In this document: positions 16,701-32,995 of the stretch, one piece after another
Position numbering within the stretch: the first letter of the stretch is position 1
How the letters are laid out: each line of letters opens with the position of its first letter
From: Candidatus Saccharimonadota bacterium
GTDB lineage: Bacteria; Patescibacteriota; Saccharimonadia; Saccharimonadales; Saccharimonadaceae
NCBI GenBank assembly: GCA_030445245.1
Contig: JAUCSD010000001.1
Span: 998,671-1,062,670 of the forward strand
DNA: 64,000 nt
Direction of reading: 5' to 3'
Notes under the pieces: model-generated
The model's database searches: none
Told to the model about the DNA's origin: nothing
What the model saw: only the letters and a program-made list of their open reading frames with translations
Program-made: the position numbers and the translations under genes

Positions 16701-18599
16701 TTATACGCTATACTCGCCAGGGTTCATGTACCCATTATTAGTAACCTGTTGTTGCGGCGGTTGTTGCTGTTGATTTGGTGGTGGCGGTGGAGTGAGTGGG
16801 TTGGTAGTGATGAGTCCCTGCTCCGTTTGACTTGCGACGATTTGAATGTGCACGTGGTTTTGACCCGCGAAAAACAGACCCTGCCCTACTGGGAAGTTGG
16901 CAAGACGTTTCCGTTCTTCCTCGGTTAGTTTGAAGACATCCGATAGTACGTCAACAGCACTTGATGATTGCTTGAGGAGAAGCTGCATTGAGGAGTTGGC
17001 CACAATGGCGCGACCCATTTTGCTGCCCATAAAATCCTCAACGTCTTGAGTGATGGTCGTAAGGCCAAGGTGGTATTTACGAGCACGCTTTGCGAGGCTA
17101 AATAAGAAGTTTGCTGAATCGTCATACTTCATTAGCTGCCACGCCTCGTCTACGATCAACATGCGCTTCTTCTGTTCGGTGCGCGTAATGTTCCAGATGT
17201 GGCTTAGCACGATGTACATGGCAACTGGTCGTAGCTCATCCTCAAGGTCTCGAATGTTGAAGACAACCATGTGGTTGTTAATCTCAATGTTAGATTGTTG
17301 TGAGAATATACCGGCGAATGTCCCAGTAGTGTATTTGCGAAGTCGTTGAGCAAGAGCTGGGCCAGTTCCACCCATATGCAGAAGCGTGTCATATAGATCT
17401 GAAATAGTAGGAGGTTGTGAGTTGTGCGTAAGAGGGTCACTTGTAATACCGGCACGAGCGTAGGTATCAATCAATCCCTGGTCGAGATCAGCTTCTTCGG
17501 CTGGTGTGAGCGCGGACATCATCTGCCCAGCGGCTGTTGCCTGTGATCCACCAAGCATCAGTCGGAATAGCCCGTGAAGCGTCACGAGGTTGGCTCGTAA
17601 GGCGTCATCAGCCTCATCATTATCAATAACACGTGGCAGGTCGAATGGGTTAATGCGAGTATCTGCATTAAGGCTAAGACGAATATAACTACCACCCACA
17701 GCATCAGATAACTTCTGGTATTCGTTTTCTGGGTCGATAATCAAGACATCTGAGCCGATCATCATACTACGCAGAGCCTCTAGCTTTACGGTGAATGATT
17801 TACCAGCACCAGACTTAGCGAATACTACCATGTTGGCGTTCTCGAGTGAGAAACGATCAAAGATAACGAGGCCGTTATTGTGCATGTTGATGCCATAGAG
17901 CACGCCCTTCTCTTGGGTAAGGTCAGCACTTGTGAACGGGAAGCTGGTGCTAATTGCACCCGTGTTCATGTTGCGGCGGATTTGTAGCTGGTCGCTCATT
18001 TGAGGGATAGTACTATTAAGCCCCTGTTCTTGCTGTGAACTTGCTACCTTACTAAAGATAAGCTGTTGTCCAAAGAGTGTTTCGATCTTGTGTTGGACGA
18101 AGCTTAGTTCGTCGAGGCTGTCGGCGTATAACGTGACATAGAGGCCAAAACGGAAGAAACGTTCTGAGCCAACCTGTAGCTGGTCACGTAGTTCCTCAGC
18201 GTCTTGTAGCGCTGCTTCAAGACCTGGGTCACGGGTTCGCCCCTTTTCGCTGTTAATTGACATGCTGGCTTCAAGTTGAGTCACTTTTTTACGTAAGTTA
18301 TTAAGCACTACTTGGCTTTCAACTGGGTAGACGAACATACTAATATCAAGTACTTCGTCGATATTAATAAGTGATGACAACCAGCCTGTGTAGATTTGGC
18401 GTGGGTAGCCGTAGATGTAGAGGGTGCGTCCGTATTTTGTACCGAGTCGGAAGTGACTAGCGTGAATCTCGAGGCTGCTTGGTGCGATGAGATCACGAAG
18501 CGTCGTCATGCCTTTTAGGAAAGCTTGTTCAACCTCAACCTGCTCACGGGCACGTTGTTGAGCGGCAATATCAATAGGATCGAGTCGTTTTTTCGCCAT
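16701..18599 (-). CDS. virB4: VirB4/TraC-like type IV secretion ATPase
   Basis: A 632-residue secretion motor. The N-terminal half (about 1-220) resembles the VirB4 N-terminal domain. The RecA-like ATPase half has Walker A AKSGAGKS at about 261-268, DVLIIDPENEYQ near 284-295, and Walker B RMLIVDEAWQLM at about 479-490. The C terminus is a Pro/Gln-rich tail. VirB4 ATPases sit at the cytoplasmic base of the channel and power pilus assembly or substrate transfer. It starts 2 nt after the previous gene. No VirD4 coupling protein or relaxase is visible in the window. Confidence 0.93.
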   Translation of the reverse strand: MAKKRLDPIDIAAQQRAREQVEVEQAFLKGMTTLRDLIAPSSLEIHASHFRLGTKYGRTLYIYGYPRQIYTGWLSSLINIDEVLDISMFVYPVESQVVLNNLRKKVTQLEASMSINSEKGRTRDPGLEAALQDAEELRDQLQVGSERFFRFGLYVTLYADSLDELSFVQHKIETLFGQQLIFSKVASSQQEQGLNSTIPQMSDQLQIRRNMNTGAISTSFPFTSADLTQEKGVLYGINMHNNGLVIFDRFSLENANMVVFAKSGAGKSFTVKLEALRSMMIGSDVLIIDPENEYQKLSDAVGGSYIRLSLNADTRINPFDLPRVIDNDEADDALRANLVTLHGLFRLMLGGSQATAAGQMMSALTPAEEADLDQGLIDTYARAGITSDPLTHNSQPPTISDLYDTLLHMGGTGPALAQRLRKYTTGTFAGIFSQQSNIEINNHMVVFNIRDLEDELRPVAMYIVLSHIWNITRTEQKKRMLIVDEAWQLMKYDDSANFLFSLAKRARKYHLGLTTITQDVEDFMGSKMGRAIVANSSMQLLLKQSSSAVDVLSDVFKLTEEERKRLANFPVGQGLFFAGQNHVHIQIVASQTEQGLITTNPLTPPPPPNQQQQPPQQQVTNNGYMNPGEYSV

Positions 18600-18601
18600 G
18601 G

Positions 18602-19435
18602 TTACATTCCCCCTTCTTGAAGATGTGGTCGTGGCGCTTCACCTTGGCCTTTTTGAACATAGGTACCCGTTACTCGCTCAAAGTCTCCCAGGGGTTCTCG
18701 GACGGCCGTATCGGGGTTATACATATTATAGTAGAGCTCACCGAGTTCCTTCGTATTGAGTTGGACGCTTTTAACACCAATTTGGAACAATCCGCTTGTT
18801 ACTGAGTCAACACGGTTTTTTATCTCGTCTTTTGCTTTTTCATACGACACCTTGTCAATCTTTGTTGCGGTTGTCTGTGGCTTTTGGAAGAGTTTACCGA
18901 ATATTCCCTTACTCTGAGCGATAACGTTCGTTAAGTCACCTGTTGGGAAGTATGGAATGACAATAAAGAAACTTTTGTCCATGATGTTTGCTTCTTGAGA
19001 GAGAATATCAATGAAGTTGATATAATCGTCCATTAACACATTTAAGAGCATGTTGTCTTGCGAGCGACGGATAGTAGCGAGACGGTCGATGTAGGGACCG
19101 ATATCAACTCGTTGCGATCGGATGAATATTTGTATTGGGAAGTAGAGTGCATTAAGGAAGTTTTGATAACTAAATTCAACACCTTCCCTTTCGCGTGAGC
19201 TCATAAGGTCGAAGTTGATTGATTTACTTGCGATGACTGCTCGAAAACTGCCATCACTCATAATCACCATACCATCACGGATCTCAGAAATAAGTAAACT
19301 ATTTTGGGTTGTGTTAAGAGGCGGTGCAGTTTTTGGCTGCTGAATAGTGGTCCCAACTGGAGCTGGTTCCTGAGGATTACTTCCAATTGCACCAGTCGGT
19401 GCTACTTGAGGAGGTTGTTGATTGTTTGGCGGCAC
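18602..19435 (-). CDS. TraC-N-like secretion-associated protein
   Basis: A 277-residue soluble protein. After a Pro/Gln-rich N-terminal 45 residues, the core (about 45-230) contains ISEIRDGMVIMSDGSFRAV, SREREGVEFSYQNFL and IFIRSQRVDIGPYIDRL. This pattern is typical of the N-terminal domain of TraC/VirB4 proteins and of the stand-alone protein often placed between PrgI and VirB4 in Gram-positive and CPR systems. It may form part of the VirB4 hexamer. It is directly upstream of virB4 in the same operon. Confidence 0.75.
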   Translation of the reverse strand: MPPNNQQPPQVAPTGAIGSNPQEPAPVGTTIQQPKTAPPLNTTQNSLLISEIRDGMVIMSDGSFRAVIASKSINFDLMSSREREGVEFSYQNFLNALYFPIQIFIRSQRVDIGPYIDRLATIRRSQDNMLLNVLMDDYINFIDILSQEANIMDKSFFIVIPYFPTGDLTNVIAQSKGIFGKLFQKPQTTATKIDKVSYEKAKDEIKNRVDSVTSGLFQIGVKSVQLNTKELGELYYNMYNPDTAVREPLGDFERVTGTYVQKGQGEAPRPHLQEGGM

Positions 19436-19468
19436 GGTCCCACTCTCCCTTACTCGATTTATATCAAA

Positions 19469-20464
19469 CTATCGCAACGAGATAACAACTTCGTCTTCCG
19501 GCAGCTGTTGCTCCTTCTGATGAATACGGTTTGCCTCGTGCGCAATTGTCTCGATAGATAAATCGGAGTTATTTGCAAGGTTTATTATATCAGGTGACAC
19601 AACCTTTTCGCTAGTGGCTGGCGGCGGAATTTGTTGAATCGGTGGCGGTACTGGAATTGCTTGGTCCTGTGGCTCGGGTTGTTGGGCGGGAGCTCGCTGT
19701 TCTCCAAGAGGTGAGATGACAGATTGGCGGATTGAATCTGGGTATGGATTATAGGTAAGGTGCGGGTCGTTCGTCTGATCTACGGCAACTGATTGCGTAA
19801 ATGCAGCAGCGTAAGGGTCTGCGATCGGAGGTGGAGTCATTGCCTGCTGTGGTGGAGGAGCCGTTGGTTGCTGATGCATACGCTCAACAACTTCCCGACG
19901 TCGTCTTGTGTCCGCTTGGCTTATCATTGTCTCGAATGACTGAGCGACACCACCTTTAGTGTCGAGAATATCTTCAGTTTGCTGAGCTTCATAGTATACG
20001 TCGTTTTGCATTGCACTGTTTGGTGCAGGCATGCCGCCAACGCCTCGTACAGCCCATCCACCGGTATCGACAATGTCTGCAAGATATGACAGTCGTCGCT
20101 GGGCTTCCATCTGTGATAGGTCTTTAGCACGTTGTACTTCGATCACCTTCGGTGCAGTGATCTCAACAAGTGACTGAATGCCATCGGGTTGCCATAGGCG
20201 CTTGCGTGGCTTTAGATAAAACGATACAACGGCTGCAAGGTATATCTCCATTGGCTGGTCCTTGCGCAGTGGCAATGCAAGAGCACCGAAGAATATGATA
20301 AGTGGCAACGGTATGATTGCGAGCGCAATGAATAGTTGAGCTAATCCCCACGCTAGAGCAATCGAAATAACCGCGATAATCAGATAGATAAACTGGCGAA
20401 AGCTAAACGGCCCGATTAATTTATCGTCAGCTTCAACATCTTGAGGAACTTTATATACGGCCAT
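19469..20464 (-). CDS. PrgI-family membrane protein with long Pro/Gln-rich tail
   Basis: A 331-residue protein. Residues 1-about 100 are a PrgI domain: MAVYKVPQDVEADDKLIGPF, two close membrane spans at about 25-62, then YLKPRKRLW. PrgI proteins are VirB3-like partners of VirB4. The remaining 230 residues are cytoplasmic, rich in Pro and Gln, and unusual in length, since PrgI alone is about 110-150 residues. The gene begins the secretion operon that runs left to 10369. A leaderless-type promoter precedes it. Confidence 0.85.
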   Translation of the reverse strand: MAVYKVPQDVEADDKLIGPFSFRQFIYLIIAVISIALAWGLAQLFIALAIIPLPLIIFFGALALPLRKDQPMEIYLAAVVSFYLKPRKRLWQPDGIQSLVEITAPKVIEVQRAKDLSQMEAQRRLSYLADIVDTGGWAVRGVGGMPAPNSAMQNDVYYEAQQTEDILDTKGGVAQSFETMISQADTRRRREVVERMHQQPTAPPPQQAMTPPPIADPYAAAFTQSVAVDQTNDPHLTYNPYPDSIRQSVISPLGEQRAPAQQPEPQDQAIPVPPPIQQIPPPATSEKVVSPDIINLANNSDLSIETIAHEANRIHQKEQQLPEDEVVISLR

Positions 20465-21244: not shown

Positions 21245-23767
21245 CTACAGTGCACCATGAAGGTTATCCATCTGTGAGGCAACATCGTGCGCTGGTTGTC
21301 TTCCTTGAAGTTGTGGATTGGTTCTGAAATTATGGATATCTGCTTGGAGTGTAGCCAACGCCGCTGCAGTTTGTGGATTTGCCTTGAGCGTGGCAACATT
21401 TGCAGTAACGTAGTTGTTAATCTTTTCAAGTTCATCCTTCGAAGCAGAAGCAAGGGCTTCGGCTGAAATTTTTCCTGATTCAAGTCGAGTTTTAATTTTA
21501 CTATCGAAGTCGCCATCGTAGTTACCTTTACTAAGATTCGATACATCACCAGCACCAAGTGATAGTGGCTTTCGGTTACCCATATCAGCTACCATTTGTT
21601 GCTGCATGGAAGATACGGCTGAATCGGCGAAGTGTCCACTGGCATCTTTAGGTTGGGTTCCAACATAATTAAGAGCCTCATGAATATCATTATCAGTACC
21701 CACCTTCATTAATTGGCCTGCTGCAGCCGAACGACGCTCTTCTGTTTCCTTGCCGCTTGTGTTCTGTATAATAGTTTTAAGCTCGGCTGCGTTGGAGCGA
21801 CTCATAGTGGTCTGCTCTGCACCAACTTTTTCATTGAACTCTCGTACCTGAGCGGATATAGCGGCTGCTCTTACCTTACTCACATCACCAGTAGGTCCGG
21901 CAATTTTTGCGGCGTAAGCGGCATCGCTACTTGCTCTGTTAGCGACATAACTTTGTGCTTCTGCTCGTGATGCGTCGGCCGCGTTTTCATATTTAAGTTC
22001 CTTGTTTTTCCCCGCTGTCACACCAGCACCGGCAATCCAGCTGGCGGTTCGCTGACGTCGTGAACCTTCCGGTCCCGCTCTTCTGGCGAATCTACCGACG
22101 GCACTAGTGCCTCTTGATCTTTCGAATCTGCGATCCTTCGAGATGTCTTTTCTGTAACCTCTGTAACCTTCAGCGCCTTTTTTAAGAGCACTAATTGGAC
22201 CTCGATTTGGATTATCGACAATTCCACCAAACTTCCCGAGTACTCCCTTGCTTGCTTTAATGAGACCTGGGACGACGACGAGCGGGATAACCGAGATAGC
22301 GGCTCCCATAATTTGAATGGCGATTTTATAGGGCCCATTTGCCGAACCCATTACGACTGTCGAAGCTAGTGCCGAGGCCCCAAAAACAAGTCCAACAGTC
22401 GGATACATTATGAGTACTATTTGCGAAAGATCCAGCCACTTTTTGAATAAACCCTCAGTGTTAGGAAGGAGTCTGGCTACGAATGCTAGGGGTGATACGA
22501 CAATAAGCAAAATTGCGAGCGCTTGGCGAAAAACAAGCACCAAGAGAACGGTCACAATTGTAATGAGAACGGCGAGAAGTGCTGGAAGTAGAGCCGATAA
22601 GCCGATATATAGGAGTGCTCCGACAGCAAGGGTGCCTGCTAGGAGTCCCCCTGCTATACCCGTCCATCCTGTTCCTGTGGCACCGAAATCTTTTGTATTC
22701 GGTAATGCCAGTCCATCGGTGACGTTATTGAGAACCTCATACATTGATCGGCCCGTAATATTTGATAGGTCTACAGCAATTGCACATATCCAATATGACA
22801 CATTTACAAATATAGCCGCCAAGACTAGTTTCGGTAGCATCTTCTTTAATCCGTAATTTGTGAGACCAGCACCGGTAAGTTGGGAGAATATAACGACAAG
22901 AAAAGCGATTACGAAGGCTATATTGGCAAAGTTACGCATTACCGACCAGGCAGTATACACTCCTGCGGTTGCTCCGGTTGTAAGGAGTGGCTGAATAGTA
23001 AGGAAACTCGATACGAGACCATAGGAGGCATCAACTATTTGAGCTAGGAAGCTTACGATAGGACAAATAATCCACCCAATACCTACAACTGCACAACTTG
23101 TTTTATCTTCAGCAGCAGGTGGCTTATTGGCAACATCTAGTTGCCCATGAGTGACAGCATCTACACAGATCTTTTTATCGGCGTCTGTAATTGCGCCGTT
23201 TTTCGTATGGTTAGCAATACAGGTATTCCAGGCAGCCTCACAATCAGGTGTCGCCTTTTTTGCACTACTGACACAAGACTTGACGGCAACACACTTTTCT
23301 TTTGCGTCCGCATTAGTAAGTGTATTACAGTCGGCGGGTTGAGTTGGAGCTGCCTGAGCAGCAACGGCAAACTTCGGATCCATGTCGATATTTGAGTCTT
23401 GTACGCTAATGCCTTGCCCACATTTTCCGGTAGCGCCACTTGCTAGTTGGTCAATATACAGTTCAGCTTTTGTTTTGTCGTTATTTCTAAATACAATGCG
23501 ACCGTTTGTGTGGTCGTAGCACCCAAAGTTAACCTTAATGCCCATGTCGGTTGTAATGGCCTCTTCTGTACTACCGCTGAACTGGTGCTGAGGAGTGACA
23601 CTAAATGTTGTCGTGCCTGTGTATTGACCACCGCTGGCTTGAATGGTTGCATCACTTGTCCAGATGTATTTCTCACCCTGAGCATGGACGGTCAATGCGT
23701 TAAAAGTGACTGCTAAGCTCGCGGCCGCAATCGCTAATCCAAAAAACTGAAGTAATTTAGTTTTCAT
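21245..23767 (-). CDS. VirB6/TrbL-like polytopic secretion protein, copy 1
   Basis: An 840-residue protein. It has a signal peptide (cut near the VHAQ at about 30), an outside N-terminal domain of about 190 residues, then a block of about eight membrane spans (about 215-510) and a long charged cytoplasmic C terminus. The span block begins with CAVVGIGWIICP and includes FANIAFVIAFLVVIFSQ and NVSYWICAIAVDLSNI, shared almost word for word with the 25820-28531 protein. VirB6/TrbL proteins form the inner-membrane channel platform. The C-terminal third is rich in Ala/Ser/Lys and of unknown fold. Confidence 0.8.
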   Translation of the reverse strand: MKTKLLQFFGLAIAAASLAVTFNALTVHAQGEKYIWTSDATIQASGGQYTGTTTFSVTPQHQFSGSTEEAITTDMGIKVNFGCYDHTNGRIVFRNNDKTKAELYIDQLASGATGKCGQGISVQDSNIDMDPKFAVAAQAAPTQPADCNTLTNADAKEKCVAVKSCVSSAKKATPDCEAAWNTCIANHTKNGAITDADKKICVDAVTHGQLDVANKPPAAEDKTSCAVVGIGWIICPIVSFLAQIVDASYGLVSSFLTIQPLLTTGATAGVYTAWSVMRNFANIAFVIAFLVVIFSQLTGAGLTNYGLKKMLPKLVLAAIFVNVSYWICAIAVDLSNITGRSMYEVLNNVTDGLALPNTKDFGATGTGWTGIAGGLLAGTLAVGALLYIGLSALLPALLAVLITIVTVLLVLVFRQALAILLIVVSPLAFVARLLPNTEGLFKKWLDLSQIVLIMYPTVGLVFGASALASTVVMGSANGPYKIAIQIMGAAISVIPLVVVPGLIKASKGVLGKFGGIVDNPNRGPISALKKGAEGYRGYRKDISKDRRFERSRGTSAVGRFARRAGPEGSRRQRTASWIAGAGVTAGKNKELKYENAADASRAEAQSYVANRASSDAAYAAKIAGPTGDVSKVRAAAISAQVREFNEKVGAEQTTMSRSNAAELKTIIQNTSGKETEERRSAAAGQLMKVGTDNDIHEALNYVGTQPKDASGHFADSAVSSMQQQMVADMGNRKPLSLGAGDVSNLSKGNYDGDFDSKIKTRLESGKISAEALASASKDELEKINNYVTANVATLKANPQTAAALATLQADIHNFRTNPQLQGRQPAHDVASQMDNLHGAL

Positions 23768-23806
23768 AGTACTTACGCTAAATTATGCCGTAAAACTAAC
23801 TAAATT

Positions 23807-23834
23807 AAAAGGCTCTTACGTAGAAGAGCCTTTT
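23807..23834. terminator. Bidirectional hairpin terminator
   Basis: AAAAGGCTCTT (23807-23817) pairs perfectly with AAGAGCCTTTT (23824-23834) around a 6-nt loop. It follows the leftward gene ending at 23853, so the VirB6-like gene at 23767 probably needs its own promoter. Confidence 0.85.
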
Positions 23835-23852
23835 ATAAAGTGGAAGTTTTGT

Positions 23853-24845
23853 TTACTTGATGGTCACAACAGACACGAGATCCCATGTATTTGTTTTAGG
23901 GTTTATCATGAAACTGAGATTATCCGTGTTAGCATATCGCATATTTGCCGTCGTAACTCCGTTAAACCCTTCAGGTGCGGCAAGACGTTCGCGTCCAACC
24001 GCGTTCTTATCACCGTTATCAGTTAAGACAACAGGAACGGTGAGGCTTATTAGATTGTCAGTATAGCCGTGAACATTTATCTGACTTTTATCGATAACTT
24101 GACGTAACTTATATGGTTCGTCTCCTGGCTTTTTGTCTAGATCGGCTACATACCTATTTCCACTTGCCTCATTGACAAACGTTGCTTGGGTTCGCATCCA
24201 CTCATCGGGTGGCGTTATCCCAGCAGTATTTGCTCCCTCTGGTGGTGTGCCGCTTAATGCGTTTATGAAGGCGGGATTAATGAAATCTACGTTCATTGCT
24301 CCGATGCCACCGTGGCCATCTGCTGAAGCATAGTCTTTGAATAGCTTCGCTTGTTCAGGTGTTTCAGGAAGATTCTGCCATTCGGTAAGCTTTGCAAAAA
24401 ATGCTTCGGCTATTGCTTTACCGTCACTTGGGCCGTATTGCTCTGCTGATATACCAAAGCCTTCTTTAAGAGCTTCCTGTCCAACGTAGTGTTTGCCGTC
24501 AACAACATAATCAAAGTTATCAAGAGTCATCTTGTCGATACTCGTTTCAGCAGTTGGAGAAGTTTCGGCAGTTGCAGTTGCACTCACCTTTTCGCCTGGA
24601 GTTGCACCAGCCGCTGCAGTTGGTCGAGCTTGAGGTGCCTCTGTATTATTATGGCTGTTCATTCCAAGTCCAAAGACCGCAGCAGCTGTCATGCCTGCCG
24701 CTGTGGCACTTGCGCCAATAACTAGTCTACGTCGAAACTTCTTAGCCCTGTTCGGATCATACGTACTGACTTCGCCACTGTTTGCGTTGTCATTGTTATG
24801 ATCTGGATCGTCAAAATTTGGTCGTACTTTGGTTCGTTCGCTCAT
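23853..24845 (-). CDS. Single-span secretion-cluster protein of unknown family
   Basis: A 330-residue protein with a charged cytoplasmic N terminus (1-40), one Ala/Gly-rich span at about 42-63, a low-complexity Ala/Thr/Pro linker (about 70-105) and an outside domain of about 225 residues. I chose the ATG at 24845 because AAGGA lies 8 nt before it; the longer frame to 24911 lacks this. Topology and position next to VirB6 would fit a VirB8-like assembly factor, but I see no decisive motif. It is bounded by its own promoter and a strong terminator, so it is a single-gene unit. Confidence 0.65.
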   Translation of the reverse strand: MSERTKVRPNFDDPDHNNDNANSGEVSTYDPNRAKKFRRRLVIGASATAAGMTAAAVFGLGMNSHNNTEAPQARPTAAAGATPGEKVSATATAETSPTAETSIDKMTLDNFDYVVDGKHYVGQEALKEGFGISAEQYGPSDGKAIAEAFFAKLTEWQNLPETPEQAKLFKDYASADGHGGIGAMNVDFINPAFINALSGTPPEGANTAGITPPDEWMRTQATFVNEASGNRYVADLDKKPGDEPYKLRQVIDKSQINVHGYTDNLISLTVPVVLTDNGDKNAVGRERLAAPEGFNGVTTANMRYANTDNLSFMINPKTNTWDLVSVVTIK

Positions 24846-24899
24846 ATCGTTAGTTCCTTGCGCACTTGTGTGGGCACTTAAAACATTGGTAATAACTTT

Positions 24900-24927
24900 A
24901 TTATACATCATAACTATAAAAAGGCAA
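24900..24927 (-). promoter_or_regulatory. Promoter of the 23853-24845 gene
   Basis: On the minus strand TTGCCT (24927-24922), a 16-nt spacer and TATAAT (24905-24900). A leader of roughly 50 nt follows, ending in AAGGA. Confidence 0.5.
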
Positions 24928-25078
24928 GGTGTCTAATGAATAATACAAACGCTACATATGGTGTGTGTAGGTTTTATGAATAAAAACCAACACCGGTAAT
25001 GAGTATATGAAAAACGAATGCTATGTAGATTTACAGATTGTAAATAAGAGTTGATGGCTATGATAAATAGAAAGTAAA

Positions 25079-25100
25079 CCCCCATCTCTTCAGATGGGGG
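25079..25100 (-). terminator. Strong hairpin terminator of the 25147 cassette gene
   Basis: CCCCCATCT (25079-25087) and AGATGGGGG (25092-25100) form a 9-bp stem with a 4-nt loop. On the minus strand TTTACTTT follows. Confidence 0.8.
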
Positions 25101-25146
25101 TCGACTCTCAAGCAAAAAGACGAGGGTATTGAGGGGAGCGGAAAAA

Positions 25147-25695
25147 CTAGTGGTTCTTGTTCCAGTTGCGCTGTAGATTGGGCCACACTCGTCGGTGGCG
25201 ATCGTTGTACTCGTCCACTGGCAAATCGAACGTGTCGTTCGAAAGGACCAGTGTTTCGCACAACTTCGCGCGGAGCTGCCAGGCCCCGTCCCACGCCTGC
25301 CATGGAGTGGCAGGGTTGATGCGGTCGAGGAGAATCACTTTCACGACATGTTTGTCGTAGGGCGAGAAGTCGATGACCGGCTTCTTTCTATCTCGCCACC
25401 GTGGTTTCGGAGGTGAATAGAACGGACGACTTTCTACGGTGACCATCCTACCGTCAGGTAGGAGGTTAACGAGAGGGTTGGAGTACTTTATGATACTCCA
25501 CGAGACCTTTCGGGTGTCGTCCTCGACTACCCAGTCCGGCGTCTTCGGTGCCGCGACAGAGACGCGTCGCATGATCGAATTAATGACCTCCTGGATTACG
25601 CCGGTCCAGTAGTTGTACTGCTCGACGCGAACTCGTTGCGTTTCAGCGTCCTTGTGAGCCGCTTGGCGCCGGTAATGATCGTCGTAGCTGCTCAA
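25147..25695 (-). CDS. Orphan soluble protein of GC-richer composition
   Basis: A 182-residue protein without signal or membrane span, rich in Trp, Tyr, Arg and Asp. I do not recognise a family. The start codon is TTG at 25695, behind a GGGAAGTGAAG stretch; this is the least certain part. A consensus promoter lies about 80 nt upstream and a strong hairpin follows the stop. It sits between two leftward secretion genes, and its sequence is clearly richer in G and C than its flanks. It is the second of three such single-gene cassettes in the window, all with non-ATG starts. Confidence 0.65.
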   Translation of the reverse strand: MSSYDDHYRRQAAHKDAETQRVRVEQYNYWTGVIQEVINSIMRRVSVAAPKTPDWVVEDDTRKVSWSIIKYSNPLVNLLPDGRMVTVESRPFYSPPKPRWRDRKKPVIDFSPYDKHVVKVILLDRINPATPWQAWDGAWQLRAKLCETLVLSNDTFDLPVDEYNDRHRRVWPNLQRNWNKNH

Positions 25696-25734
25696 GTCTT
25701 CACTTCCCGTCTTTCGTGAGAGATCGAATGGATA

Positions 25735-25765
25735 CCTCGGATTACCAGTATCTGAGAATCCAAGG
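25735..25765 (-). promoter_or_regulatory. Leader hairpin upstream of the 25147 cassette gene
   Basis: CCTCGGATT (25735-25743) and AATCCAAGG (25757-25765) can form a 9-bp stem with one G-U pair on the minus-strand RNA. It lies just downstream of the predicted start site, within a leader of about 70 nt. Its role is unknown. Confidence 0.35.
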
Positions 25766-25772
25766 TGTTTAT

Positions 25773-25801
25773 ATTATAAACAATAGTTGATGTTACGTCA
25801 A
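25773..25801 (-). promoter_or_regulatory. Consensus sigma70 promoter of the 25147 cassette gene
   Basis: On the minus strand TTGACG (25801-25796), a 17-nt spacer and TATAAT (25778-25773). Confidence 0.75.
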
Positions 25802-25819
25802 TTTACGAACATAATTTTT

Positions 25820-28531
25820 CTAAGGTGTTGGTGGAGGTGCTGCAAAACCTTGAAGCGCTTCTTTTGCAGCGGTTGTTGCTCGTTGGCCGAGAATATCGGT
25901 ATTAAGGATTCGATATGCACTGTGTTGAAGTTCTCGTCTATTTAGTAAGAAGTTAGGCAAATCAGCAGGTGCGACGAGCATCTCCTGTGTGGTTGCAACA
26001 GTAATCATACGCTTGATCGCCTGAGCGTCCATGCCAGCGAGTACTTCGTCCTTAACTTTACCTGCCGAGATATTGTATCGGATCGCTGAATCAATACCGG
26101 CTTCACCTGCGAACGTACCTTGGGCAACCTGGTCGATACTCTTTGAACCCAGGTAGATTGCTTTGCTCGGGATACCGTTTGCTTGGATAACACTTGCGAT
26201 ACTAGTACCGTATGCGGATGTTTTACCGGCACGGATTGCACCCGTTGCGGGATCGAGTAGAGTTTTACCTGACTCTTTAATAATCGTTTCAATCTCATCG
26301 AATGAACCGGTTTTTAGTTGTTCCTGTATGGCAGCTTCGCGTGCAAATGCATCGTCATTTCGGAAGACATATCGTACGCCGTTCTTTTCTGCAGGAACAT
26401 CTTTACCTAAAGCGAGTGTCTGTCGACTTGTTGAATCAAGGTTAAAATGCTTCATAAGCTGTACCTTATTCTGGATGTTGTCATCATACTCTTTACGCTG
26501 CGTAGCAATAGCCGATGATAGAGCCGATTCGGAGCCCATCGTTTCTGCAATACCACCTGCAGCTGTCTGTAGTTCTTGGCTGGCGAGTAACGCGCTTGCA
26601 TAATGTTGCTGTTGCTCGTGTTTGCCAAAGTGCTCCCGACTTTTGGCAACCTCTGAGAGTACTGCATCGTTTTGAATATCCCCGACGAATGTATCGGTAT
26701 TAGCTCTATGACTACGAAGCGCATCAGCCGCTAAGCCATCTGGCGTGACGATACGCGTTGCACTACCAGCCTTAATCTCTTCCCAGTCGGCTTCAACATC
26801 TGCTTTGGAAAGATCAAGTTTTAGCTTGCTTGCACGGGCATTGAGTTCAAGATTTTGTATGCCTGCATTCGTACGCTTAGAACCTTCGAAGCGCGCTTGC
26901 GCATCACTCTCGCCCCTGTTTTTAATAAGATCTGCTGACATTGCTCGCTGTTGAATATCAGAGTAGGCTTTGCTACTCGCCCAGTTAGCATCTGCCGTGG
27001 CTTCGTTCGCTTTTTGCCAACCTTCACGAGTACGCTTATTTGTGTCTGTGCGACGTCCAAGACGAGCAACGGCGTCACGCCTGCGGTTTAGTGGGCTGGC
27101 AAAGACTGCGGCTTTACGTTGGTCTCGACGTTCTTCGGCGAACTTGCGTGTACGATCGATGAGACCCTTCCCAGGATTGTTGACGATGCCACCGATTCTC
27201 GCAACCAATGAGCCGCTAAACTTAATGAGTAGAGGTGTGATCACAACGGGAGCTACCTGCACTCCCATACCGAGTATAATGAGGTTAAACGAATCAGCAT
27301 TCTGGATGATTGCCATACCGGCAAGTTGTGCACCTCCGAAGATAAACGAGAATATAGGAAACAGCATGAGCATGGTCATGCCTAGTTCATGCCACTTCTT
27401 GAAGTATTGCTCGGTATTCGGAAGGAGATATGCGACGAACGCTAGCGGCGATACGATGAAGAGTATAGTGATAATCGCTTGGCGGGCCGCCATAACCAGC
27501 AAGGCTACTAGCACGGCCACGATAACGCCTACCAAGATTGGAAGTAACATGTAAAGCGCGCTACTAACTGCCCCGGCGCTGAGCAGAAGACCGTATGCGC
27601 CGAATCCAGCCGCAGCGGCTGCGGTTCCACCAGAGAGAACCAATCCTGCGACACTCTTCCAGCTGAAGACATCCCAGCTGTTCCCTTCGGAGCCCACTAA
27701 GTTATTACGTATGGAAATAAATATATCTTGAATTGAATAGCCGGCGATGTTTGATATATCAATTGCGATGGCGCATATCCAGTATGATATATTAACCAAG
27801 ATAGCGGCTATAATCAGTCGAGGTAACATTTTTTTAATGTCGTAGTTCGAAAGACCAATAGTGGTAATTTGCGAATAGATAATTATTAAGAAAGCGATCA
27901 CGAACGCTATATTGGCGAAGTTGCGCATGTAAGACCATGCTCGGTAGAGCGCGGTTTCCTGATTTGTCTGTGCGGGACGAACAGTTAGGAAGCTGGCAAG
28001 GATACCAAATAGATGGTCCATCGCGCTTGCAAGGAAATTGGCAACTGGACAAACGATCCAGCCGATACCCTCAACCGCGCAAGAGGTTGTTCCGGCACTG
28101 ACTGGGTTTTGTGGTGAGAGACCAATAGCTGTTTGGCCGAAAGGGTTTTTATATTTGTCGGGTGGCGTGTAGTCGTATGTTACGAAAGTAGCTGAGGTTT
28201 CTTTGGTTGGGTCGGTCCCCGGTGCGAAGTAGATAAGATCTGCTTTGGTGGTTGGACTACCTGGATTCGAGGTGTTGGGCGCAACGTATCTATAAATCAG
28301 GCTACCTGCAGGGAGATTGTGGCTGTCGCCCGCTTTAGCTGGTGCAATCTTAGTATAGGTGTTTCCGAAATACGTAATCGTATCACCGCTCCATTCAGCG
28401 TCAGCTGCGTGCACCGTAGGCGATGCAAGCACTGTATACATAAAAGTGGCCACAAACATTGCTGCGGCAAACATACACAAATTCCGTAACGATAGTCTAC
28501 CGTACGGGAGTGCTTTAGCTCTTTCCCACAT
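25820..28531 (-). CDS. VirB6/TrbL-like polytopic secretion protein, copy 2
   Basis: A 903-residue paralogue of the 21245-23767 protein. It has a signal peptide or anchor at about 18-40, an outside domain to about 150, a membrane block (about 155-450) opening with CAVEGIGWIVCP and containing NFANIAFVIAFLIIIYSQ and NISYWICAIAIDISNI, and a long charged cytoplasmic tail of about 450 residues. The tails of the two copies differ far more than the membrane blocks. It is the rightmost gene of the leftward secretion arm. An AAAGAGAT stretch precedes the ATG. Confidence 0.8.
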   Translation of the reverse strand: MWERAKALPYGRLSLRNLCMFAAAMFVATFMYTVLASPTVHAADAEWSGDTITYFGNTYTKIAPAKAGDSHNLPAGSLIYRYVAPNTSNPGSPTTKADLIYFAPGTDPTKETSATFVTYDYTPPDKYKNPFGQTAIGLSPQNPVSAGTTSCAVEGIGWIVCPVANFLASAMDHLFGILASFLTVRPAQTNQETALYRAWSYMRNFANIAFVIAFLIIIYSQITTIGLSNYDIKKMLPRLIIAAILVNISYWICAIAIDISNIAGYSIQDIFISIRNNLVGSEGNSWDVFSWKSVAGLVLSGGTAAAAAGFGAYGLLLSAGAVSSALYMLLPILVGVIVAVLVALLVMAARQAIITILFIVSPLAFVAYLLPNTEQYFKKWHELGMTMLMLFPIFSFIFGGAQLAGMAIIQNADSFNLIILGMGVQVAPVVITPLLIKFSGSLVARIGGIVNNPGKGLIDRTRKFAEERRDQRKAAVFASPLNRRRDAVARLGRRTDTNKRTREGWQKANEATADANWASSKAYSDIQQRAMSADLIKNRGESDAQARFEGSKRTNAGIQNLELNARASKLKLDLSKADVEADWEEIKAGSATRIVTPDGLAADALRSHRANTDTFVGDIQNDAVLSEVAKSREHFGKHEQQQHYASALLASQELQTAAGGIAETMGSESALSSAIATQRKEYDDNIQNKVQLMKHFNLDSTSRQTLALGKDVPAEKNGVRYVFRNDDAFAREAAIQEQLKTGSFDEIETIIKESGKTLLDPATGAIRAGKTSAYGTSIASVIQANGIPSKAIYLGSKSIDQVAQGTFAGEAGIDSAIRYNISAGKVKDEVLAGMDAQAIKRMITVATTQEMLVAPADLPNFLLNRRELQHSAYRILNTDILGQRATTAAKEALQGFAAPPPTP

Positions 28532-28815: not shown

Positions 28816-29214
28816 ATGAAGATAAAACAAACAGTAAATCGATGCATCATTTCTTTGGGAATTATCCTCTCTATCGGAGCGGCAGCCGTTCCGATATCTG
28901 CAAATGCAGATTGTGCGGGTGTGAAAACATCGATTATTAGCTGTACTCAAAAAGGCGGCAAAAACTCGACTTCCAAGGACAGCGGTATATGGGGAATCCT
29001 TCTTCTTGTTCTTAATATTATGACAGCGGGAGTTGGTATCGCGGCCGTTGGGGGTATCGTGTACGCTGCGATTCTCTACACTACTGCGTCTGATCGCGCT
29101 GAACAAGTGAAGAAAGCAAAGGATATTATACAAAATGTTGCTATTGGTCTTGCGGCATATGCTGGTATGTATCTGCTCCTCAACTTTCTTGTACCCGGCG
29201 GGATATTTAGCTAA
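28816..29214 (+). CDS. VirB2/TrbC-like small pilin protein, array copy 1
   Basis: A 132-residue protein with a signal peptide (cut near SANA at about 30), a short loop with two Cys, and two membrane spans (about 55-80 and 100-125) separated by a charged stretch with AEQVKKAKDIIQN. This is the VirB2/TrbC pilin layout. It is the most divergent of the tandem family with its ITT-type loop replaced by LYTTASDRA. It begins a six-gene rightward array. Pilin identity follows from topology and context. Confidence 0.75.
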   Translation: MKIKQTVNRCIISLGIILSIGAAAVPISANADCAGVKTSIISCTQKGGKNSTSKDSGIWGILLLVLNIMTAGVGIAAVGGIVYAAILYTTASDRAEQVKKAKDIIQNVAIGLAAYAGMYLLLNFLVPGGIFS

Positions 29215-29223
29215 AAAGGAATA

Positions 29224-29655
29224 ATGATGAAGATACGAAAGATACGAAATTGGATAGCCGCCCTATTGTTTGTCACAAGCCTCGGTGGTGCAACGCTCGC
29301 GGTTGCTACTCCGCAAACATCGTTTGCAGCTTGCAATGATACCCTACTCACCTTCCCTGCTTGGTTTAAGGGGCTGACGGACGGTAAGTGTGATATAAAA
29401 AGTCCCACCCAGGCCGGTGGTCTTTCAACGTTCATCTGGACGATCGTGTTGAACGTTATTGAGCTGGGCCTCCAGCTCGTTGGTTATTTATCCGTAGCTT
29501 TTATAATCAGGGGTGGATTTAAATATATGACTGCTATTGGTGAGGCTGGTGAGATAGAAAAGGCCAAGACGATTATCAAGAATGCTGTTATTGGTTTGCT
29601 TATATCGATCTTCTCGGTTGCAATTGTTAACTTTATCGCAGGAGCAATAAACTAA
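29224..29655 (+). CDS. VirB2/TrbC-like small pilin protein, array copy 2
   Basis: A 143-residue member of the array. Signal peptide cut near SFAA (about 36), a longer outside loop with two Cys, then two spans (about 62-88 and 110-138) around GGFKYMTAIGEAGEIEKAK. The second ATG (29227) may be the real start, since the two are adjacent. It follows copy 1 by 9 nt behind AAAAGGAATA and overlaps copy 3 by one base (TAATG). Confidence 0.75.
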   Translation: MMKIRKIRNWIAALLFVTSLGGATLAVATPQTSFAACNDTLLTFPAWFKGLTDGKCDIKSPTQAGGLSTFIWTIVLNVIELGLQLVGYLSVAFIIRGGFKYMTAIGEAGEIEKAKTIIKNAVIGLLISIFSVAIVNFIAGAIN

Positions 29656-29954
29656 TGAATCACCTATTTCTATTTCTTGTCGCAGCAAGTGAAAAAGTAA
29701 GTCCAGGCTCGATCGGTATCAACCCGGTAAAGGATGCAAACGGTGCTATTGCAGGCCTACTCACTGCGGTATACGCTGGAGCGGGTATGGTGTGTGTGGT
29801 TATTATTATAATAGCCGGTCACCTATACACTACTTCTTCTGGGGACGCATCTAACCTGAAGCGTGCCAAAGAAGCAATTTTGGGTTCAATCATCGGTTTA
29901 ATAGTAATCATGGGTGCATTCGTGGGAACACAATTCATATTAGGGAGGTTTTAA
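29655..29954 (+). CDS. VirB2/TrbC-like small pilin protein, array copy 3, short form
   Basis: A 99-residue member, the shortest of the array. It has only a brief hydrophobic start instead of a full signal peptide, then two spans (about 32-55 and 75-97) flanking YTTSSGDASNLKRAKEAILG, the conserved linker. It may be a non-processed minor subunit or an inner-membrane component. Start and stop abut both neighbours (TAATG before, TAAATG after), so translation is coupled. Confidence 0.7.
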   Translation: MNHLFLFLVAASEKVSPGSIGINPVKDANGAIAGLLTAVYAGAGMVCVVIIIIAGHLYTTSSGDASNLKRAKEAILGSIIGLIVIMGAFVGTQFILGRF

Positions 29955-30332
29955 ATGAAAAAATGGAAACAAGTAGTAATGAGCCTCGCGCTAGTTCTGG
30001 GTTTCGTAGGTGCTATAGCACCCGTAGCAGACGTATCGGCAGTGGATGTTTTTAGCCAGTGTGCTAAAAGCGGTAGTTCTGCCGTCTGTAAGGCGAGCGG
30101 GAGTGACAACTTGGGCAGCATGGTGAGGATCGTCATCAATACCATATTGATTGTGCTTGGTATGATTGCTGTTATTATGATCGTTGTAGGTGGTATCCGT
30201 TATACTACCTCGAATGGTGATAGTAGCGCGATTAAGTCAGCCAAAGATACCATCCTGTATGCTGTTGTTGGTCTGGTCGTGGCGATGCTGGCATTTGCAA
30301 TCGTGAACTTTGTGATAGATAGATTTAAATAG
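29955..30332 (+). CDS. VirB2/TrbC-like small pilin protein, array copy 4
   Basis: A 125-residue member with a signal peptide (cut near VSA, about 28), two Cys in the mature N terminus, and two spans around GGIRYTTSNGDSSAIKSAK. That linker is nearly identical to those of copies 5 and 6. The ATG follows the copy 3 stop directly, behind an AGGGAGG site. Confidence 0.8.
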   Translation: MKKWKQVVMSLALVLGFVGAIAPVADVSAVDVFSQCAKSGSSAVCKASGSDNLGSMVRIVINTILIVLGMIAVIMIVVGGIRYTTSNGDSSAIKSAKDTILYAVVGLVVAMLAFAIVNFVIDRFK

Positions 30333-30351
30333 ATTAAAAGGAGAAATAACT

Positions 30352-30720
30352 ATGAATAAAATAAAATTAGCCGTTGTATCACTTGTCGCACTTATGGGCG
30401 TTGTATCGTTTGTACCAGCATATCAAGCCGTTGCATCACCAGCTAGTGAAATCGAAACAGGCGTTAATCAGTCTGGTGGAAGTGGTGGCGGTGGTGACCT
30501 TGGTAAAGCAATTAAGATTGTCGTTAATATACTTTTGTATATTCTTGGCGCGATCGCGGTTGTGATGATCGTTATTGGTGGTATAAAGTACACCACGTCT
30601 AATGGTGACAGTAGCGCAATAACGAGCGCAAAGAATACAATTCTTTATTCTGTAGTTGGACTTGTTGTTGCTATCATGGCCTATGCAATCGTGAATTTCG
30701 TGGTTACAGCATTCAAGTAA
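30352..30720 (+). CDS. VirB2/TrbC-like small pilin protein, array copy 5
   Basis: A 122-residue member: signal peptide cut near AVA (about 27), a Gly/Ser-rich mature N terminus without Cys, and two spans around GGIKYTTSNGDSSAITSAK, ending in YAIVNFVVTAFK. AAAGGAGAAA precedes the ATG. It and copy 4 are the closest pair in the array, suggesting recent duplication. Confidence 0.8.
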   Translation: MNKIKLAVVSLVALMGVVSFVPAYQAVASPASEIETGVNQSGGSGGGGDLGKAIKIVVNILLYILGAIAVVMIVIGGIKYTTSNGDSSAITSAKNTILYSVVGLVVAIMAYAIVNFVVTAFK

Positions 30721-30727
30721 AAAACTA

Positions 30728-30756
30728 TTAACAAAAAACGTGCCATCTGATATAAA
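30728..30756 (+). promoter_or_regulatory. Internal promoter before pilin copy 6
   Basis: TTAACA (30728-30733), a 17-nt spacer and TATAAA (30751-30756) preceded by TGA. A leader of about 25 nt with AAAGGAAC follows. Copy 6 can thus be made independently. Confidence 0.6.
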
Positions 30757-30788
30757 ATAGAGAGAGTAATCCTAAGAAAGGAACAACA

Positions 30789-31199
30789 ATGAAAAATATT
30801 ATTAAGAAAAGTTTCCAAGCTTTACTGATCGTACCAGTGTTAGCACTTGGTGTCGGCTTTATCGCTCCCGTCCTACAGCCTATCGAGGCTCACGCGCAAG
30901 CTACGGGTGGACTACAAGGTGGTGCTGACTCATCAAAGGGTACCGATCAGCAGACTGACCTCTTCGGAGATAACGGCGTCTTTAAGATCATCACTAATGT
31001 TCTCCTATTTATCATCGGTGCAATTTCAGTAATCATGTTGATTATCGGTGGTATCCGTTACGTCGTCTCCGGTGGTGACAGCGCTGCTGTTACGAGTGCA
31101 AAGAACACGATCCTTTACGCAATTGTCGGTATTGTTGTGGCTATTCTTGCCTACGCACTCGTCAACTTCGTTATCGGTAGCTTTGCAGCTGGTAAGTAA
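30789..31199 (+). CDS. VirB2/TrbC-like small pilin protein, array copy 6
   Basis: A 136-residue member with a classic signal peptide cut at AHAQA (about 36), a Gly/Asp-rich loop with DLFGDNGVFKIITNVLLF, and two spans around GGIRYVVSGGDSAAVTSAK. Its own promoter, good ribosome site and strong terminator suggest that it is the major pilin. The separate gene at 32474-32890 is its closest relative by eye (GGLRYVISGGNSTNITAAK). Confidence 0.82.
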   Translation: MKNIIKKSFQALLIVPVLALGVGFIAPVLQPIEAHAQATGGLQGGADSSKGTDQQTDLFGDNGVFKIITNVLLFIIGAISVIMLIIGGIRYVVSGGDSAAVTSAKNTILYAIVGIVVAILAYALVNFVIGSFAAGK

Positions 31200-31230
31200 C
31201 ACCAACAAATATTCATTGTACTTAGCTTAT

Positions 31231-31257
31231 ATAACACCCCGCATGTCGGGGTGTTAT
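31231..31257 (+). terminator. Hairpin terminator after the pilin array
   Basis: ATAACACCCCG (31231-31241) pairs with CGGGGTGTTAT (31247-31257), with a 5-nt loop, followed by TGTTTGT. Confidence 0.8.
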
Positions 31258-31319
31258 TGTTTGTATGATAAATCGACTAGCCTCCCTTCTCTATTTAGTA
31301 AGTGAGGAGTATATAATTT

Positions 31320-31346
31320 AAAAAGCCCGGATATACCGGGCTTTTT
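31320..31346. terminator. Bidirectional terminator, mainly of hsp20
   Basis: AAAAAGCCCGG (31320-31330) pairs with CCGGGCTTTTT (31336-31346) around ATATA. A T run lies on both strands. It follows the leftward hsp20 gene. Confidence 0.85.
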
Positions 31347-31362
31347 AAATCGCTAGTGTAAA

Positions 31363-31836
31363 CTACTGGATAGTAATTTTCTTGGCTTGTTCTTGTTTGA
31401 TCTTACTGAAGCTGATTGCCAGTACGCCATCTTTGAGCACTGCTTCTACTTCGTCTTCCTTAACGGCAACGGGTAGAGCCAGTGTACGACTGAATTCACC
31501 CCAATAACATTCTTGAATATGCCAGTTTGTTGCATCTGTATCGTCACCACTCGAAAGCGTGCCGCTGATTGTCAGAATACCATCACTGATACTTACATCA
31601 AGGTCTTCTTTGTTAACACCTGCAGTGCGGGCTTTAACAATGAGTCGCTCATCTGTTTCGTATACATCCACGGCTAATTGGCCGGGAAAGTCATCTTCAT
31701 TATCTTCCCATGCCGAGTCGCTCGCAGCGGGTGCTTGGGTTTGGGTTGCTTGTTGTTGGGTGAGCTCATCGTCGTTCAAAAACGCAGCGGCAAGTTCATC
31801 TTCGATCAATAGATCATCGTTTTGTTTACGGGCCAT
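31363..31836 (-). CDS. Hsp20/alpha-crystallin small heat-shock protein
   Basis: A 157-residue chaperone of the IbpA/Hsp16 type. The N-terminal arm (1-about 50) is Gln/Ala/Asp rich. The alpha-crystallin domain (about 55-145) has LAVDVYETDERLIVKA, LDVSISDGILTISGT and a late EVEAVLKDGVLAISF, the usual GVL block. The final ITIQ is an I-x-I-like C-terminal anchor. I place the start at 31836 (MARKQ) because GGAGG lies 5-6 nt before it; a GTG four codons upstream is possible. It holds unfolding proteins for refolding. Confidence 0.9.
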   Translation of the reverse strand: MARKQNDDLLIEDELAAAFLNDDELTQQQATQTQAPAASDSAWEDNEDDFPGQLAVDVYETDERLIVKARTAGVNKEDLDVSISDGILTISGTLSSGDDTDATNWHIQECYWGEFSRTLALPVAVKEDEVEAVLKDGVLAISFSKIKQEQAKKITIQ

Positions 31837-31882
31837 GATATCCTCCACTTTCTCTAGGCTCTATTGACAAATAGTCTCTTCA

Positions 31883-31911
31883 ATTATAACCAACATCTAC
31901 AGTATAATCAA
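31883..31911 (-). promoter_or_regulatory. Promoter of hsp20
   Basis: On the minus strand TTGATT (31911-31906), 17-nt spacer, TATAAT (31888-31883). I see no CIRCE element here, unlike before groES. Confidence 0.6.
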
Positions 31912-32308
31912 TAACGGTAATGCGCAAAACGTAAAAAGTACAATGATTAGTGGCCACTTACCTCCTATGACCCTACACCCCTGTTGTAGATATAGTAAAA
32001 TAGGCCTTCTTGATGGGATAATTGTAAATATAACATCGTTAAGACATCTAATGTTCAATACGTAGGATCATACTGTCTAAATTGGGTGTGATAGAGGGTA
32101 TGTGCCACCTATCCAGAGTAGTGAATAGAGAGAATATAGAGGAGAACCTGCAAAAAATGTCTCGAATTATTCATTGATGTTTTATATGCAACAGTATCTA
32201 AATCAAGACATAAATAATGAGAATAGTCGACACTCTGGCGTATATTGCACGTTAACCTCTCGACGAGCGTATTCTTATCTGTTAAAATAGTCCAGCAACC
32301 ACAAATTA
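31912..32308. other. About 400 bp without a supported gene
   Basis: AT-rich stretch between hsp20 and tRNA-Ser(TGA). Short frames such as one near 32157 code for only a few residues. The only clear signal is the tRNA promoter, TGTTAAAAT, near 32278-32288. I cannot recognise an RNA gene. Confidence 0.4.
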
Positions 32309-32398
32309 GGAGAGGTGCCCGAGTGGTTTAAGGGAACGGTCTTGAAAACCGTCGTGCCAGCAATGGTACCGAGAGTTCGAATCTCTCCCTCTCCGCCA
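32309..32398 (+). tRNA. tRNA-Ser (anticodon TGA)
   Basis: A 90-nt tRNA including an encoded CCA. The acceptor GGAGAGG pairs with CCTCTCC. The anticodon stem ACGGT/ACCGT encloses the loop CTTGAAA (anticodon TGA). A long variable arm, as in all serine tRNAs, precedes the T arm GAGAGTTCGAATCTCT. Confidence 0.95.
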
Positions 32399-32433
32399 AG
32401 AAAAATACAGTCCGAAAGGACTGTATTTTTCTT
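32398..32433 (+). terminator. Hairpin terminator joined to the tRNA-Ser(TGA) 3' end
   Basis: A 16-bp perfect stem around GAAA: from AAGAAAAATACAG to its mirror CTGTATTTTTCTT. The left arm begins at the final A of the tRNA CCA. Confidence 0.85.
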
Positions 32434-32473
32434 GTTTTAAGATTGTAGCTATATCTTTGAAAAGCTGCAGAAT

Positions 32474-32890
32474 CTATACGTTCGTTCCGCCAGCTGCCCC
32501 GCTGCTTCCTGGTAGAAAGCTTTCAAGGACAAAATTAATAATCGCATAGGCCATGATAGATATAATTAGGCCGACGATTGCGTAAAGAATTGTATTCTTT
32601 GCAGCGGTAATATTAGTTGAGTTACCTCCAGAGATAACGTAACGGAGTCCTCCGACAATCACCATAATAACGCTAATTGCACCAACGATAAAAAGCATGA
32701 CGTTACTAATAGTGGTAAAGATGCCCGTTGCTCCGAAGAGTGTGGCGGCTTGGTCAACACCGCGGGCGGCATTGGCCCCTTCACTCATGGTTCCGTTAAA
32801 AGCAAAGCTGACTGGAGCAGTAATGATACTTATTATTGTTGCGACTAATACGCTTACAATACTTAGATTTATAGAGTATCTTCGTTCCAT
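32474..32890 (-). CDS. VirB2/TrbC-like small pilin protein, detached seventh copy
   Basis: A 138-residue paralogue of the pilin array, on the opposite strand between two tRNA-Ser genes. Signal peptide cut near AFA (about 30), DQAATLFGATGIFTTISNV, then two spans around GGLRYVISGGNSTNITAAK, and a Gly/Ala-rich tail. It is closest to array copy 6. The start is ATG 32890, with AAAGGAG five bases upstream. An extended -10 (TGCTATAAT, 32938-32930 on the minus strand) lies about 40 nt upstream. It is probably an alternative pilin under separate control. Confidence 0.8.
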   Translation of the reverse strand: MERRYSINLSIVSVLVATIISIITAPVSFAFNGTMSEGANAARGVDQAATLFGATGIFTTISNVMLFIVGAISVIMVIVGGLRYVISGGNSTNITAAKNTILYAIVGLIISIMAYAIINFVLESFLPGSSGAAGGTNV

Positions 32891-32995
32891 ATATGCTCCT
32901 TTCATTTGGTTTTAGACCATATTAACCTAATTATAGCAAAATGGTACTAAATAGTCTACTCGCCGCCCCTGTTTTATGTTACAATTATGCAGCAC

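Follow-up and report, generated by a model that had tools for sequence, protein, structure and literature searches.

Positional identity in a tandem array of VirB2-like pilin genes beside a type IV secretion system in the Saccharimonadaceae

Results

The pilin locus

The window examined here is a 64,000-nucleotide stretch from a Candidatus Saccharimonadota bacterium of the family Saccharimonadaceae (GenBank assembly GCA_030445245.1, contig JAUCSD010000001.1, forward-strand positions 998,671 to 1,062,670), whose genome is one contig of 1,164,240 bases. It carries a head-to-tail run of six pilin genes, c1 to c6 (28816-31199, + strand), and a seventh copy, c7 (32474-32890, - strand), detached from the run by an HSP20 gene and a tRNA-like stretch. 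The array adjoins a type IV secretion system (T4SS) cluster and runs divergent from it (Table 1). A first-pass annotation of this DNA had described seven VirB2-like pilin genes, six in tandem and one detached, and all seven open reading frames lie where it had placed them; the description as VirB2-like is backed by membership of the Pfam family T4SS_pilin (PF18895) and by the T4SS context. Comparison with related genomes gives the first three genes of the array a positional identity that is kept across arrays.

Taken as single proteins, six of the seven score above the PF18895 cut-off of 26.6 bits and c1 falls below it; in a scan of the genome all seven exceed it, c1 only with its frame neighbours included. 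None of the seven matches the TrbC/VirB2 model (PF04956) at E 1 or better. The cut-off of that model is passed only by a pilin at 568 kb (40.9 bits), the genome scan having placed two further T4SS_pilin genes at about that position, and weak matches occur in 10 of 50 c6-class proteins (best 5.5e-5). The Mbov_0395-type model NF045849 gives weak matches to c3, c6, c2 and c7 (5e-7 to 3e-3), all below its curated cut-off of 40 bits; these matches (29227-29954, 30789-31199 and 32474-32890) hint at VirB2-like pilins in conjugation systems of other one-membrane cells.

The seven proteins share only 24-54% pairwise identity, and so are old paralogues rather than recent duplicates. Long direct DNA repeats are confined to c4, c5 and c6 (63-71%), and a repeat search of the locus found no near-identical tracts and no invertible element; the single inverted pair (30628-30701 and 32529-32602, 77%) is the pilin domain common to c5 and c7. 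A signal peptide, which had been ascribed to all copies, is present in most but is absent from c3, as the same annotation had half conceded; c3 has only two hydrophobic segments, the other copies having three such regions. Similarly, the linker GG(I/L)(K/R)Y..S.GDS.A..SAK, which had been taken as common to the whole set, fits c4-c7 at best, and the alignment has divergent forms of it in c1-c3.

Order, orthology and copy number

PF18895 genes are present in 39 of the 41 genomes examined (the source genome and 40 relatives). Twenty arrays, that of the window included, have exactly six single-domain genes, and leave-one-out position models built on these placed 17, 17, 16, 15, 15 and 19 of 20 genes correctly at positions 1 to 6; three of the misfit arrays, L029, L032 and L042, read from c2 or c3 onward. 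Hidden Markov models trained on 13 arrays were applied, by sequence alone, to 75 loci from named genome records. Every one of the 62 arrays that reached four pilin domains had the order c1, c2, c3, then c4-c7, where label shuffles lead one to expect 1.17; the count omits the 13 of the 75 loci that have fewer than four domains, and some of its c3-c7 labels have margins below 10 bits. Certain of these loci apparently repeat genomes of the first set (e.g. L073/L026, L084/L028, L074/L022, L061/L023), and none appears to be a training array.

A phylogeny, the check that had been proposed with the first description, was constructed from 114 pilins, drawn from 17 of the 20 six-gene arrays (L029, L032 and L042, which begin after c1, being omitted) and from 12 detached copies. 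In this tree c1 forms one clade (100/99), as does c2 (99/90), and 15 of the 17 c3 proteins fall in one clade (99/96). Lineage-specific pairs among c4-c7 are seen in L016, L018, L035 and L045. Exactly one copy is present of c1 in 72, of c2 in 80 and of c3 in 73 of 85 complete arrays, the c4-c7 classes together contributing one to four genes; pilin domains per array number 4-8, with six the commonest count (43/85). The c4-c7 genes turn over by lineage-specific duplication, and the array seems to combine a fixed first half, older than the taxonomic order, with a second half in turnover. Of the loci outside the order, three belong to the same class, and in two of these the c1 model scored best for the first gene. 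In one family outside the order the second gene is a double pilin (L161, L162, L168, L169).

Recurrent fusion of c2 and c3

The genes of the first half are tightly packed, with median gaps, over 50 six-gene arrays, of -1 nucleotide (nt) for c1/c2, -1 for c2/c3 and -0.5 for c3/c4, against 71 nt for c5/c6; in the window the start codon of c3 overlaps the stop of c2. At six of the 75 named-record loci (L058, L060, L072, L077, L080, L117) c2 and c3 are one open frame, L058 and L060 being 93% identical, and further fusions occur among relatives' loci in L014 and L043 and, less securely labelled, in L010. The fused proteins retain both the Cys motif of c2 (52 c2 proteins include 41 with exactly two Cys) and the C-terminus of c3. 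On the c1 tree, in which many forks are unresolved, the fused state needs seven changes, at least three of them forced by well-supported branches. Double-pilin genes are also held by L015 and L017, and L015 was entered as fused in the count of changes although its second half scored as c5; L124, with a double gene labelled c2+c5, was excluded from the c2+c3 count. Because in-frame fusion is recurrent, it argues that c2 and c3 are used together and work as partners. Fusion to c2 would also place the N-terminus of c3 outside with no need of a signal peptide, which fits the absence of one from c3.

The last gene and its promoter

Of 97 arrays, 84 have more than 40 nt between the last gene and the one before it, compared with 28 of 369 other gaps. 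There are 79 distinct gaps of this kind; 65 of them contain the sequence TGNTATAN (shuffles: mean 2.9, maximum 8) and 46 contain TTAACA (shuffles: 3.7, maximum 11). Among 44 six-gene arrays, 34 have TGNTATAN in the 80 nt before gene 6; for genes 2-5 the figure is 14 of 176, and wider stretches surrounding the c1 start contain it in only 3 of 44. The own promoter that had been proposed for copy 6 is in this way strongly backed by comparison between genomes. Scanning the window alone was uninformative: its 14 promoter-like sites, against 10.6 in shuffles, are not clearly above chance, and with 15 occurrences of TGNTATAA against 10.3 in shuffles the comparison between genomes was needed.

The c6 protein is also the best conserved. 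It is 74-76% identical to its orthologues in L011, L055, L019 and L050, where c1-c5 reach 48-64%; in 13 of the 14 nearest arrays, a set that apparently holds one genome twice, no other copy is as similar to its orthologue; and over all 43 arrays c6 has the highest median identity (59% versus 37-53%). Given this conservation, together with a conserved promoter of its own, c6 is probably the separately expressed major pilin. In the leader of c6 (30757-30788) the sequence AGAGTAATCCTAAGAAAGGA is kept in several close relatives, and its TCCT might base-pair with AGGA in the ribosome-binding site.

The heads of c1 and the detached copy

In eight distinct genomes c1 is 347-502 residues long (taking longest-frame starts), and the extra part is Cys-rich. 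These heads are related among several of the eight genomes and have no Pfam match. The c1 of the window is short and retains the Cys motif ahead of its first span. Judged from these features, c1 is a candidate for an exposed or tip subunit. Large N-terminal parts are also seen on two array pilins of another locus (L032:5388-8386, - strand; 419 and 581 residues), with seemingly similar 'GWA.D..' stretches and, besides the pilin, no Pfam domain.

A detached copy was found, within the flanks fetched, at 11 of 22 relatives' loci in one family (f1) and at none of 15 in other families, and at 36 of 61 named-record loci with at least four array genes. It is on the strand opposite to the array in 41 of 47 cases. 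By its place in the tree, c7 is kin to the c6 of its own family. The most likely start of the window copy is at 32890, where an ATG is preceded by AAAGGAG. An own promoter for this gene, also part of the earlier description, receives moderate backing from other genomes, since 36 of 52 detached copies have TGNTATAN near their start, a count made without a shuffle control.

Predicted structure

The AlphaFold2 model of c6 (predicted local distance difference test, pLDDT, 84; predicted template modelling score 0.55) has a signal helix, a short helix and a helical hairpin. Foldseek gave no match to it at E 0.001. VIA-align returned many unrelated helical hairpins at Z 7-10, and the archaeal conjugative pilin 8dfu (E 6.8, Z 6.9, root-mean-square deviation 4.7, 79 residues aligned) is listed among these. 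A sequence search of solved structures with alignment A1 found nothing at E 10. The modelled hairpin is generic, fitting many unrelated proteins, and would decide neither for nor against a VirB2 fold. A mixed alignment made for a deeper model of the c2+c3 fusion was not used, the c3 rows having fallen on the c2 half.

The T4SS neighbourhood and a second T4SS

Some 8-10 kb from the array, on the opposite strand, lie genes for a PrgI-family protein and a split VirB4-like ATPase, recognized by PrgI and P-loop_TraG matches and, for the latter, by NF045971 (CD1110-family VirB4; 372 bits, above the cut-off); this neighbourhood is kept in relatives. Two large multi-span proteins encoded nearer the array have no Pfam or NCBIfam match, and relatives of them adjoin other arrays. 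From their size, their place and published T4SS layouts, they may be VirB6-like. The one relaxase model run on the genome (PF03432) had no match, and the coupling-protein model PF02534 had none over its cut-off in the genome, with sub-cut-off matches at two places, one of them (574748) beside a second T4SS.

This second, compact T4SS (L047, G000:C1:566500-576500) has two pilin genes (1851-2207 and 2211-3665 of that locus), one product passing the TrbC/VirB2 cut-off and the other being a pilin fused to a multi-span protein (484 residues). It also has a small protein in the PrgI place, a split VirB4 and, judged by eye, an M23-like protein, and its 795-residue ATPase may be its coupling protein. 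Similar pilin pairs are found in L048 and L049. The HSP20 gene beside the array (31363-31848) has counterparts at 33 of the 37 array loci of relatives; by inspection, 30 of the 33 converge with their array. It is also kept at the three same-class loci outside the order.

Table 1. Pilin genes, predicted signals and T4SS genes of the window
Feature	Position	Strand	Description
Wall-hydrolase-type proteins of the T4SS cluster	12161-16688	-	Phage-lysozyme2 protein; M23 peptidase protein
T4SS core	16701-20464	-	Split VirB4-like ATPase (16701-18599 and 18602-19435); PrgI-family protein (19469-20464)
Two large multi-span proteins	21245-28531	-	21245-23767 and 25820-28531; divergent from array
c1	28816-29214	+	Signal peptide; CAG..TSIISC motif ahead of first span; C-terminal LLNFLVPGGIF; PF18895 25.4 bits alone, 26.7 with frame neighbours; clade 100/99
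c2	29227-29655	+	Signal peptide; two-Cys ectodomain (C..TLLTFPAWFKGL..GKC); PF18895 26.9 bits; clade 99/90
c3	29655-29954	+	Short, without signal peptide; PF18895 33.5 bits; NF045849 5e-7; elsewhere fused to c2
c4	29955-30332	+	Signal peptide, two Cys; begins right after c3 stop; PF18895 44.4 bits
c5	30352-30720	+	Signal peptide, Cys-free; PF18895 44.4 bits
c6 promoter (predicted)	30728-30756	+	TTAACA, 17 nt, TATAAA; extended -10 TGATATAA at 30748-30755
c6	30789-31199	+	Final array gene; signal peptide; PF18895 36.0 bits; AlphaFold2 pLDDT 84
Intrinsic-terminator-like hairpin 3' of c6	31231-31257	+	11 pairs, then T-rich tail
c7 (detached pilin)	32474-32890	-	PF18895 29.2 bits; flanked by two tRNA genes
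c7 promoter-like site	32930-32958	-	TAGACT, 17 nt, TATAAT; TGCTATAA at 32931-32938

Discussion

A fixed mixed assembly and its alternatives

Comparison of sequences has established the family of these proteins, their order, the orthology of c1-c3, the fusions, the copy numbers and the conservation of the promoter. Positional orthology, the single-copy state of c1-c3 and the c2+c3 fusions point together to a fixed heteromeric set, and we consider it somewhat probable (about 0.6) that the seven pilins are subunits of one mixed T4SS surface assembly with a division of labour. The proteins would be assembled jointly, with c6 the most abundant and c1 exposed. Genes c1-c5 would share a single compact message with translational coupling and supply the minor subunits at set ratios, with c2 and c3 acting as a pair. 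The most exposed part would be c1, which has a disulfide-type motif and in some species also a large Cys-rich head, and it could take the host-contact job done elsewhere by VirB5. The major subunit c6 would be made separately from its own promoter, and c7 would be a second, family-specific version of it. A more detailed scheme of six fixed, non-equivalent pilins, in which c1 is a host-contacting tip replacing VirB5, c2 and c3 an obligate pair, c4 and c5 adaptors and c6 the separately promoted polymer subunit, is offered only tentatively.

Several observations weigh against a fixed mixed assembly of this kind. Positions c4, c5 and c6 are not clades in the tree, needing 7, 9 and 8 changes, so that fixed roles for these three would hold at most within families. 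No recognizable c3 is present in 11 of the 85 complete arrays, and at 19 loci outside the order (L155-L173) the c1, c2 and c3 labels are not clear. The promoter motif would indicate separate transcription of c6, not its abundance. The AlphaFold model of a natural c2+c3 fusion was poor (pLDDT 52) and was not used, and such a model lends no support to a c2-c3 contact. Finally, in the available text of an electron cryotomography study of Nanosynbacter lyticus, no filament is assigned to the T4SS (PMC12206443).

The lack of an assigned filament would suit an arrangement with no pilus at all, in which the pilins surround the two VirB6-like proteins within the cytoplasmic membrane as a hetero-oligomeric ring or scaffold and expose only short heads. 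The monoderm type of the VirB4 (NF045971) and the prevalence of six pilin domains per array are consistent with this. However, a separately promoted last gene is better suited to an abundant polymerizing subunit, the large c1 heads point outward, and the range of 4-8 domains misfits one strict hexamer; we regard the ring as unlikely, though it is the alternative to be taken most seriously. Much less probable is that the array serves a channel for taking up DNA or importing nutrients instead of the export of effectors. The T4SS of Southlakia epibionticum is essential and has no recognizable relaxase or coupling protein in the published description available (PMC10633639), nucleotide uptake has been suggested (PMC11665869), and the source genome of the window lacks matches to the relaxase and coupling-protein models at the levels given above; the pilin sequences, on the other hand, give no sign of the direction of transport.

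The first-pass annotation had allowed for switchable or mixed pili, and it is the mixed form that agrees with positional orthology, single-copy c1-c3 and the c2+c3 fusions. If the copies were switched or shuffled alternatives for antigenic or host-range variation, as described for the VirB2 arrays of Bartonella and Anaplasma and proposed for Patescibacteria (PMC12102498), then the turnover of c4-c7 by lineage-specific duplication and the different heads and Cys contents of the copies would be readily explained. Against this, c1-c3 are one-to-one orthologues across families in fixed order, the repeat search found nothing near-identical or invertible, and c2 and c3 fuse into one protein; moreover, the one packed stretch common to c1-c5 predicts that several copies are expressed together. 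Such variation is the least probable of the explanations considered, and a fixed mixed assembly of major and minor pilins is favoured over switching.

Relation to known systems

Tandem VirB2-like arrays in Saccharibacteria have already been published (PMC12102498; PMC10633639), and what is added here is positional identity. In the larger survey, 441 arrays of 2-11 genes were described in 383 Patescibacteria assemblies, with abundance in Saccharimonadia and a mean identity within arrays of 25%, and host versatility was suggested by analogy with Bartonella (PMC12102498). The array of the window is of the same kind, tandem PF18895 genes by virB4, with six adjacent pilin genes and virB4 about 9-10 kb away. 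The emphasis of that survey, in its available portions, is on variability, and positional orthology, the c2+c3 fusion, the promoter of the last gene and the long c1 heads do not figure there; nor, in the accessible text of the literature on Saccharibacteria and Patescibacteria T4SS pilins, was positional orthology, pilin fusion or a last-gene promoter found. The Bartonella and Anaplasma arrays, cited in the same survey, are likewise tandem VirB2 paralogues of host-associated T4SSs and are read in terms of antigenic variation (PMC12102498), whereas the first three positions of the window array are fixed orthologues, and interchangeable copies and recombination traces were not found, the only repeats being those of c4-c6, with no identical tracts.

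A close counterpart is the series of S. epibionticum ML1, of the same class, where the T4SS cluster is the one noted above. There the T4SS and pilin series are essential on the host, and ComEC-dependent transformation is dispensable (PMC10633639); a review counts six pilins (PMC12857230), while the window has seven genes, one of them detached. The conjugative pilins of the TrbC/VirB2 family (PF04956) have the same signal peptide, two spans and proximity to VirB4, but differ in that their model does not reach any window copy. The Mbov_0395-type proteins of mycoplasma integrative and conjugative elements (NF045849) are also pilin-like and belong to one-membrane cells, their difference being that every match to them is under the cut-off.

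To our knowledge, VirB2, TrbC and TraA systems have one pilin per pilus; a six-pilin structure, if true, would differ from these as a conjugation-type pilus of heteromeric build. Saccharibacteria cannot live on the host without their T4SS, and the role of this system has been called completely unknown (PMC11665869). Should the pilins prove to be parts of one fixed machine, the published host-versatility reading would fail for at least c1-c3, and the individual subunits would become targets in their own right: c1 for host contact, c2 and c3 for pairwise assembly, and c6 as a marker for seeing the pilus.

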